Assembly: GCA_026745465.1 (NCBI GenBank)
Contig: JACYXH010000802.1
Coordinates: forward strand, 4,315,758-4,379,757
DNA: 64,000 nt
Source: Lota lota
Lineage: Eukaryota > Chordata > Actinopteri > Gadiformes > Lotidae
Direction: 5' to 3'
Positions within the stretch are counted from its first letter, which is position 1; each line of letters opens with the position of its first letter. Below are positions 42,701-45,700 of the stretch, one piece after another. The notes under the pieces are model-generated. The model was not told the DNA's origin and did not search any database. It saw only the letters and a list, made by a program, of their open reading frames with translations. A program made the position numbers and the translations under genes.

Positions 42701-45700
42701 GCGACCGGGAGTTCAGCGGGCGCGCCCTGGCGGCGGGCGGCGCGGCCGCGGCCGCCGACAGCAGCGCGTCGGACGAGGAGAAGGTGTGCGGCAGCATGGA
42801 GAGCAGCTCCGCCGCCGGGGGCGCGGCCTCCAGCCAGGGCCCGGCCGCCGGCATGGCCGACCTGGTCCTGGCCAACCAGCAGATCATGAGCCAGATCCTG
42901 TCGGCGCTGGGCCAGTGTAACAGCAGCGCCATGGCCATGATCATAGGTACACACCCTCTCCCTCCCCTTGGATCACATCATGAACGATATGGTGTGGATC
43001 GCTCCCTCTGGATCACAAGGAGAACTGGATGTGGCGGAGTGTATAATACCGGGGTCGTGTCCATCTCGGTTGGTGGAGCAAGGCGCTAACACTGCCAGGG
43101 TTATGTGTTCGATTCACACTGGGGCAACCCTTGCTGACAATGCAAGCAATGCACTCATGATATTGCTAATGATGCCATAAATATATGATGGAGGCAAATG
43201 GCTCCAGATTAATTTCTACATCTCCTCAACTACCCACGTAAACATTTTCAGCATTATATGTTGAATGTTACACATCTTTTGAAGCCACATGCTAACTACA
43301 CTAGCTACCCCTCCTTCCATAATACCTAAACAACCTTCCCCCTCCTCTTTTCTCTAGGAGCCAGCGGTCTGCACCTCACCAAACACGAGAACTTCCACGG
43401 GGGTCTGGACGCCATCTCAGTGGGCGACGGCCTCTTTACCATCCTCACCACCCTCAGCAAGAGGGCCACCTCTGTGCAGGTCATGCTGCAGCCCATACTC
43501 ACCTACATGGCCTGTGGATACATGGGGAGACAGGTGAGCTGGGAGCGAGCTTCACATTTCCATATCGTCTGTCAGGATTGACCGCAAATCGTACTTGGGT
43601 GTGTCTCGGTAAAAACCTAAAGAACAACGTGATGGAAAGTAAACGTTGGAAGATGTTCCATGTGTGTTAGGTGCAAGTGTACCTTATGGTACGGTAGAAG
43701 ACATTTACTATGTGATAATAATAACAAAGACCGAAACCTTCTTGTGATACAGTGAATGTTTTATCTTTGTTTGTTTTGCGTTTCTGTCGCAGGGTTCTCT
43801 GTCCACGTGCCAGCTGTCAGAACCTCTCCTCTGGTTCATCCTCAGAGTGTTGGACACCAGCGAAGCACTGAAGGCCTTCCACGACATGGGTAGGTCTTCA
43901 CACAGACACAGGCGCTCTGCCACACCTCGTCACACCTTCAGAGGTTCAGTCTGTTCAGTTGTTCAATTGTTTGATCTGGATGTTTGTTTGTCATGAGTCC
44001 AGAACATTTACCTGGTGTAGATACAATGTGTGTATCTGTGTTAACCTCTGATCTATCCACAGGTGGTGTCCAGCTGATCTGTAACAACATGGTGACCAGC
44101 ACGCGGGCCATCGTCAACACAGCGCGCAGCATGGTCTCCACCATCATGAAGTTCCTGGACTCGGGGCCCGGGAAGGCCGCAGACGGCAGCCTGAAGGCCC
44201 GCGTCATGACCGCTGAACCAGACAACGCCGAGGGCCTGCACAACTTCGCCCCCCTTGGTAATCCATCCATCATTGATATACATGGTTTTACATTGTGTAT
44301 AATATACAATACATACATTGATACACAAGTGGTTGCATGGTGGGCTTTAAGGATATTTTTTTATGTTGATACGTTTATAGCTGTGCTATAACATGTATAA
44401 CATAAAATGTTCAAGAATTTGGCTGGTTTGTTAAGATCCCAGTTTAATTGTTGACATTGTCGAGATGTAAATCCGCCATTAATTTTGTTCAACTCACTAC
44501 CTCTCACAGTGTAGACGCGTTACGAAATTTGGCAGTTGGGAGATCAATTGACATCCATTTAATTCCAAAATAGTGTTTAGCAGAGCCCATAGCTGTATCT
44601 TTGTTTTATCGTCATTTCCTGCCTTATCGTGGCCTATCGAGTATCGCCAGACCAATGACACCTCTCCAACCCAGCCCAAAGCTTTATTTAAACAAGCCTT
44701 CCTTACACCTCCGTACCCCTCCAGGCACCATCACGTCCAGCAGCCCCACTGCCCAGCCGGCGGAGGTCCTGCTCCAGTCCACGCCCCCCCATCGCCGGGC
44801 GCGGTCTGCGGCCTGGTCCTACATCTTCCTCCCCGAGGAGGCCTGGTGTGACCTCACCATCCACCTCCCTGCCGCCGTGCTCCTCAAGGAGCTGCACATC
44901 CAGCCACACCTTGCCTCCCTTGCTAGTGAGTACACACACACATCCAGCCACACCTCACCTCCCTCACTAGTGAGTACACACACACATCCAGCCACACCTC
45001 ACCTCCCTCACTAGTGAGTACACACATTCAGCCACACCTCACCTCCCTCACTAGTGAGTACACACACACATCCAGCCACACCTCACCTCCCTCACTAGTG
45101 AGTACACACACACATCCAGCCACACCTCACCTCCCTCACTAGTGAGTACACACATACAGCCACACCTCACCTCCCTCACTAGTGAGTACACACACACATC
45201 CAGCCACACCTCGCCGCCCTCACTAGTGAGTACACACACGCATGTACGCACACACATCCTGCCTCACCACAGTTTGCAGTAGTGCTAAAATAATTAATTT
45301 GTCACTATAGGAGGGCCAAATCCGCCCTACTAGCTGTCCCTACAGCTCCTTCCATGTTATGTTTTAATATTTATACTATTTATACTCATGTTGACTATAT
45401 TACATGAATATTACATGCTGTCATGCCCCAACACCACATGATGCAGTGTGAGGGCAAGGCAAGGTTCTTCAGGGTGAGCTTCATAGAAGATCCATGGAAC
45501 TGTGGCGTAGAGGGCGAGGACACAGGGGTGTTTACAATGTTCAGGAACAGGAAGCTAGCCTTGCCGGCTTCAGGGCTTCCCCGTGTCCTGTCTCTGTCGC
45601 TTCTCATTAAAGTTGAATGTCCCTGGTTGTTCCACAGTCTGGGCTTTAATTATTCAGTGCGATGCATTGTTCATGCTTCATGCTTTCGCTTTCTCTTCGC

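Follow-up and report, generated by a model that had tools for sequence, protein, structure and literature searches.

Which 5′ splice site is used when an exon is followed by several identical ones? This question is raised by an exon of BIRC6 within the 64 kb stretch of Lota lota DNA analyzed here (hereafter, the window), where the donor at the end of the exon is followed by seven copies in a tandem array. We consider it probable that this array is a near-neutral minisatellite spanning the exon-intron junction, that splicing takes place at the first donor, and that the copies possibly mask themselves.

A search of both strands of the window identified the 9-mer CTA/GTGAGT (the slash marks the junction) eight times on the + strand, at all of the positions claimed in a preliminary description of this DNA (Table 1), and no further occurrence outside the array. 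Tandem Repeats Finder delimited the array at 44895-45243 and reported a period of 44 (8.1 copies, 91% matches) together with a second period of 128 (2.7 copies, 95% matches). This higher-order repeat is also visible when the block 44926-45053 is compared with 45054-45181, as the two are identical at 127 of 128 bases; part of the array would therefore have grown in three-unit steps. With head-to-tail units of 10-100 bp and high identity, the array is a minisatellite; it starts within the exon and carries an identical donor 9-mer in each unit, which is the anatomy of a junction-spanning, multiple-donor array. The exon-derived part of the unit is 31 bases long (44895-44925, upstream of the donor), in agreement with the claim that each unit copies the last ~30 coding bases of the exon; however, the copying is inexact, with four differences in five copies and five differences in two copies. 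Chance matching does not explain the array itself.

The copy number of the array is taken from one assembly, and tandem repeats as a source of assembly error are the topic of PMC6868369, judging by the accessible portion of that paper. Nonetheless, it is extremely improbable that the array is an artefact with a wrongly collapsed or expanded copy number, as unit length varies in the regular order 44-44-40 and the last unit is marked by a change found in no other unit and by a CG of its own. The exact number of copies could even so be wrong.

Table 1. Coordinates of the BIRC6 exons, donors, and donor-associated arrays in the window.
Feature	Position	Strand	Remarks
BIRC6 exon donating the repeat	44725..44925	+	Human BIRC6 match; exon 49 in the preliminary description
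Junction-spanning minisatellite	44895..45243	+	Units of 44-44-40-44-44-40-44 bp, in order; higher-order period 128
True 5′ splice site GTGAGT	44926..44931	+	GT 44926; inferred from conserved protein
Copy donor 1	44963..44974	+	GT 44970, within palindrome CTCACTAGTGAG
Copy donor 2	45007..45018	+	GT 45014, within palindrome; TAG at 45012-45014 in exon frame
Copy donor 3	45047..45058	+	GT 45054, within palindrome
Copy donor 4	45091..45102	+	GT 45098, within palindrome
Copy donor 5	45135..45146	+	GT 45142, within palindrome
Copy donor 6	45175..45186	+	GT 45182, within palindrome
Copy donor 7	45219..45230	+	GT 45226, within palindrome; unit retains CG at 45212-45213
Next BIRC6 exon	46079..46358	+	Acceptor side of the intron
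Sister array A1	24451..24702	+	44-bp minisatellite on another BIRC6 donor, true GT 24467
Sister array A3	50150..50641	+	Third BIRC6 donor, true GT 50152; 18 further donor-like copies, mostly 25-bp units

When translated together, this exon and the one that follows align with human BIRC6 in the PDB (E 2.2e-96), with no gap at the junction between them. The reading PHLASLA/TCPSSV, present in human BIRC6, is obtained from donor 44926 only. When the exon frame is read onward, it meets the TAG at 45012-45014; donors 44970 and 45014 cause a frameshift followed by stops, and the five donors from 45054 to 45226 reach this TAG in frame. The claim that only the first donor keeps the protein whole is thus upheld, given that all seven other donors hit either frameshift stops or the TAG. 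In the accessible portion of PMC4974935, an intron gain in potato RdRp likewise involves a tandem duplication across a boundary, by which part of an exon becomes intronic; however, in BIRC6 the donor side is copied and a new intron is not seen. As a test for an intron made by duplication, we examined the BIRC6 protein, which crosses one intron without an insert, and no extra intron is evident.

The descent of the array can be read from its differences to the exon. CpG decay yields two products, TG and CA. At 44921-44922 the exon has TG whereas all seven copies have CA; at 44912-44913 the exon again has TG, whereas six of the seven copies have CA and the last has CG (45212-45213), apparently a retained intermediate of this decay. 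TG in the exon and CA in the copies can each be derived from one ancestral CpG, and the array is thus descended from the end of the exon. An additional TG/CA difference occurs at 44893-44894, on the margin of the CA run, and the other copy-exon differences are at 44900 in two copies and at 44916 in the last copy. We infer an ancestral junction that read CTCGCC...CTCGCTA/GTGAGT; the exon change from CTC to CTT is silent (Leu). The array also shows what appears to be an older founding duplication and a more recent expansion. A CA run lies directly 3′ of the donor and CACA opens the exon part of the unit, so that exon CACA and intron CA run are plausible microhomology for the first duplication. 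The CACA and the CA run are the probable partners in the slippage or unequal exchange by which this junction-crossing duplication may have arisen next to the donor; the array would then have expanded, partly in 128-bp steps. A tandem duplication across the junction followed by expansion had been proposed in the preliminary description, and it is well supported by the exon identity, the CpG-decay pattern, the 128-bp block, and two sister arrays described below.

We propose that the first donor is probably still used, that the surplus copies are discarded with the intron, and that the array is selectively near-neutral; most likely, it does nothing beyond being removed with the intron. Likely reasons for first-donor use are exon definition and the early recognition of this donor. 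The human gene IFI6 offers a known comparison, with a repeat unit of 12 bp. This minisatellite reportedly supplies multiple splice donors, as Turri et al. are said to have described in 1995. In IFI6, according to the accessible portion of PMC4526556, two downstream repeat units serve as donors, giving three mRNAs. As in the BIRC6 array, minisatellite units furnish donors to one exon, and by its anatomy the BIRC6 array would be a further case of the IFI6 kind. The two differ in that several IFI6 units are used in mRNA, whereas the BIRC6 units are 40-44 bp long and the later donors break the frame. The new element here is a palindrome centred on each copied donor and lacking at the true donor.

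If the BIRC6 copies were used measurably, as those of IFI6 are, early-stop transcripts would be degraded and array length would tune BIRC6 output. The copied 9-mers (7/7) are identical to the true donor, two downstream units are employed in IFI6 (PMC4526556, accessible portion), and, in what is accessible of PMC6002489, the intron-proximal site is favoured among comparable donors by a mechanism that is not known; all three points favour such use. We nevertheless regard it as rather unlikely, as use of any copied donor from 44970 to 45226 would break the frame or run into a stop, and the BIRC6 protein is closely conserved here; in addition, the copies are predicted to be masked.

The palindrome, CTCACTAGTGAG, is perfect, 12 nt long, and present seven times. 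It was found nowhere else in the window (for a palindrome, a + strand search covers both strands) and nowhere in the 200 kb sample described below. The true donor site is CTTGCTAGTGAG, in which the palindrome is interrupted by wobbles. The array donor is the most self-complementary among the 57 predicted BIRC6 donors, with six of six position pairs including wobbles, compared with four for the next. Predicted RNA duplex energies are -19.0 kcal/mol for copy-copy, -15.8 kcal/mol for true-copy, and -12.6 kcal/mol for true-true pairs, whereas the U1 pairing energy (-7.1 kcal/mol) is equal for true donor and copy. The array RNA is predicted to fold at -73.2 kcal/mol, compared with -45.7 kcal/mol (standard deviation, 4.2) in 100 shuffles (z -6.57). 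Tilings of a shuffled unit are a fairer control than plain shuffling for tandem arrays, and none of 60 such tilings folds as well as the 44895-45243 array (z -2.44); in this control the two sister arrays are ordinary, with 29/60 and 51/60 tilings as low. In all five local-folding settings, the true donor at 44926 is more accessible than all seven copies, and the ratio of its opening probability to that of the median copy is 1.6, 2.2, 74, 19, and 13. In these models, the copied donors would pair mutually and be hidden in the RNA, and the palindromes may assist correct choice, with the copies paired together and the true donor more accessible in local folds.

It is unlikely, in our estimation, that the array is a self-masking decoy, in which the palindromic copies would silence each other in hairpins while the true donor stays open. 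In that account, the palindrome was created when CpG became CA in the copies while it became TG in the exon. CpG decay accounts for the palindrome, and therefore no selection need be assumed.

The preliminary description had suggested that the array acts as a U1 decoy or reinforces splicing. More broadly, the array could have been selected for U1 binding as a decoy, to reinforce splicing, or to guard the intron against premature polyadenylation. It contains eight identical U1 sites, and with 40-44 bp between them, more than the 23 + 12 nt of the U1 footprint (given in the accessible portion of PMC6002489), several units could be bound simultaneously. However, judged by eye, the small number and close similarity of the copies preclude showing that donor bases are better kept than the rest of the unit, the last copy of sister array A1 lacks the GT, and the estimated genome-wide number of such arrays is roughly explained by random placement. 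The decoy and reinforcement roles are unsupported; local folding instead predicts hidden copies, though global folds differ little. We judge selection for U1 binding to be very improbable.

Two other BIRC6 donors carry arrays (A1 and A3; Table 1). The true junction of A1 is backed by the human BIRC6 alignment; further GT copies occur at 24512, 24556, 24600, and 24644, and the last copy, at 24688, is dead (AT). The second donor, at 24512, adds 45 bases in frame with no stop, and a 15-residue insertion via this donor is therefore possible on the basis of its reading frame. The true junction of A3 (MAQ/VLCELFQ) is likewise backed by the human alignment. A3 shares with its exon only the last few bases preceding the donor, and its copies read CTTAG/GTAGGC, each also offering AG/GT as in a recursive splice site. 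We rejected a recursive-splicing reading, as acceptor scores, obtained for four of the 18 copies, are 1.1-1.9 and fall within the bottom 25% of the predicted acceptors of the gene. A need for back-up of weak donors was also rejected; array donors rank 0.65, 0.32, and 0.58 among the 57 predicted BIRC6 donors and are not unusually weak.

An automatic scan of 70 predicted exons in the window, some surely false, for donor copies matching at 15 or more of 20 bases flagged 24466, 44925, and a false exon lying within the array, the last on both sides; it gave no acceptor flag in the window beyond this false exon. The array at 50152 scored 14, under the threshold, and was recognized by reading. Three other observations concern the same region. 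A 33-bp array at 25278-25421 begins ~20 bases past a fourth BIRC6 donor (GT 25258), and donor copies are not evident in it. The exon preceding the array at 50150 (49640-49790) has His, Pro, and Ser codon runs in the predicted BIRC6 protein. Upstream of BIRC6, predicted exons at 1775-3006 read as if from a different gene for a multi-pass membrane protein.

We compared the number of junction arrays with random placement. The complex minisatellites of the window have a summed unit length of 345 bp (301 + 44; the 44 bp of the main array were added separately because the complexity filter removes it). With ~57 predicted donors, 0.31 junction-spanning founders are expected and three are seen (Poisson 0.004), a comparison that includes the array that drew attention; the window count thus points only weakly to a local excess of junction arrays.

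Pieces of 10 kb, 20 in all and one per 50 kb, were sampled from the first megabase of the 10-Mb contig that contains the window. Among the 69 predicted exons of this sample there were two donor flags (L015 and L025) and one acceptor flag (L016). L015 (5740-5830) looks real: a 67-bp segment that spans the donor of an EGF_CA exon has been duplicated once, giving two diverged copies, which may represent the process seen in BIRC6 either at its beginning or after decay. L025 was rejected as a GT-run artefact and L016 as an apparently false exon, the latter judged by translation only.

Across the genome, three AGGTRAG motifs spaced 10-40 bases apart gave 12,372 matches, compared with 3,356 for the reversed motif; these matches overlap within arrays. 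The 100 matches listed, first contigs first, were grouped by reading into at least 14 arrays, 13 of which were inspected. One of the 13 is a clear case (L036; G000:C10:188100-188900): the exon of an ERAP-like aminopeptidase, ...NIIKATFQ followed across the junction by gtgaggccgccttccag, has ten donor motifs including the true one, with nine tandem copies after the donor in 17- and 25-bp units. In another (L031), the array donors start 28 bases beyond the inferred donor of a zinc-transporter exon. No adjacent exon is evident by eye in the remaining 11 of 13, and a Pfam search with frames from six of these 11 matched no family. Scaled from the matches listed, there would be ~1,700 AGGTRAG arrays genome-wide, ~130 of them on exons; random placement from the sample predicts ~120-170 junction arrays of at least three copies, a low estimate as it uses 7/28 sample arrays and the filter removes CA-rich arrays. 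Both figures are rough, as they derive from 1/13 and from a single megabase, and their agreement is limited to the order of magnitude. From these rough estimates, we conclude that junction arrays recur as a class in a repeat-rich genome and that no special cause is needed.

As an acceptor control, three copies of TTTTNCAG gave 438 matches, compared with 82 for the reversed motif, a ratio above that of the donor motif. The acceptor-motif matches listed stem from few arrays; of eight inspected, one was not readable through, and none is followed by a recognized coding exon. In two of these arrays, the last copy is followed by an open frame (77 and 51 residues), and neither frame matched a Pfam family. 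A preference for donors over acceptors is not shown by this control, as few arrays dominate it. A genome DNA search with 44860-45260 found nine matches besides its own locus, all weaker (66-75% identity). We rejected them as relatives of the array and took them instead as CA/TG-run similarity; the one that was read (L002) is by eye a TG-rich array with a different unit. The Atlantic cod, as presented in the accessible portion of PMC5241972, is similarly a fish with a repeat-rich genome, where genes and repeats frequently coincide; however, the word "splice" is absent from the main text of that paper. Among the titles listed by literature searches of open-licence papers, none of which was aimed at fish and splice donors together, there was no paper on donor-spanning minisatellites in fish.

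Several points weigh against a near-neutral, possibly self-masking array spliced at its first donor. The intron-proximal preference in the accessible portion of PMC6002489 would predict use of the last copy. Three arrays in one window exceed the number expected from random placement, and a local hot spot or some use of the arrays may be involved. In array 50150 the opening ratios of first donor to median copy are 4.1, 10, 6.9, 26, and 1.6, but the first donor is less open than a variant copy at 50343 in each of the five settings; in the array at 24451 the first donor has no accessibility advantage (ratios 0.6-1.1). Absolute accessibility is low for all eight donors of the main array. Global folds are nearly alike for true donor and copies (0.06-0.15 unpaired, mostly paired), and this predicted similarity speaks against a strong masking effect.

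The array is a natural test of choice among identical splice sites, in which one exon faces eight identical donor 9-mers in near-identical surroundings and the outcome is readable. As BIRC6 has two further arrays with other unit lengths, the effects of position, spacing, and RNA pairing are separable in one native gene. If the self-masking account were true, pairing among the copies would mean that donor arrays are tolerated, or that choice of the first site is sharpened despite the intron-proximal preference.
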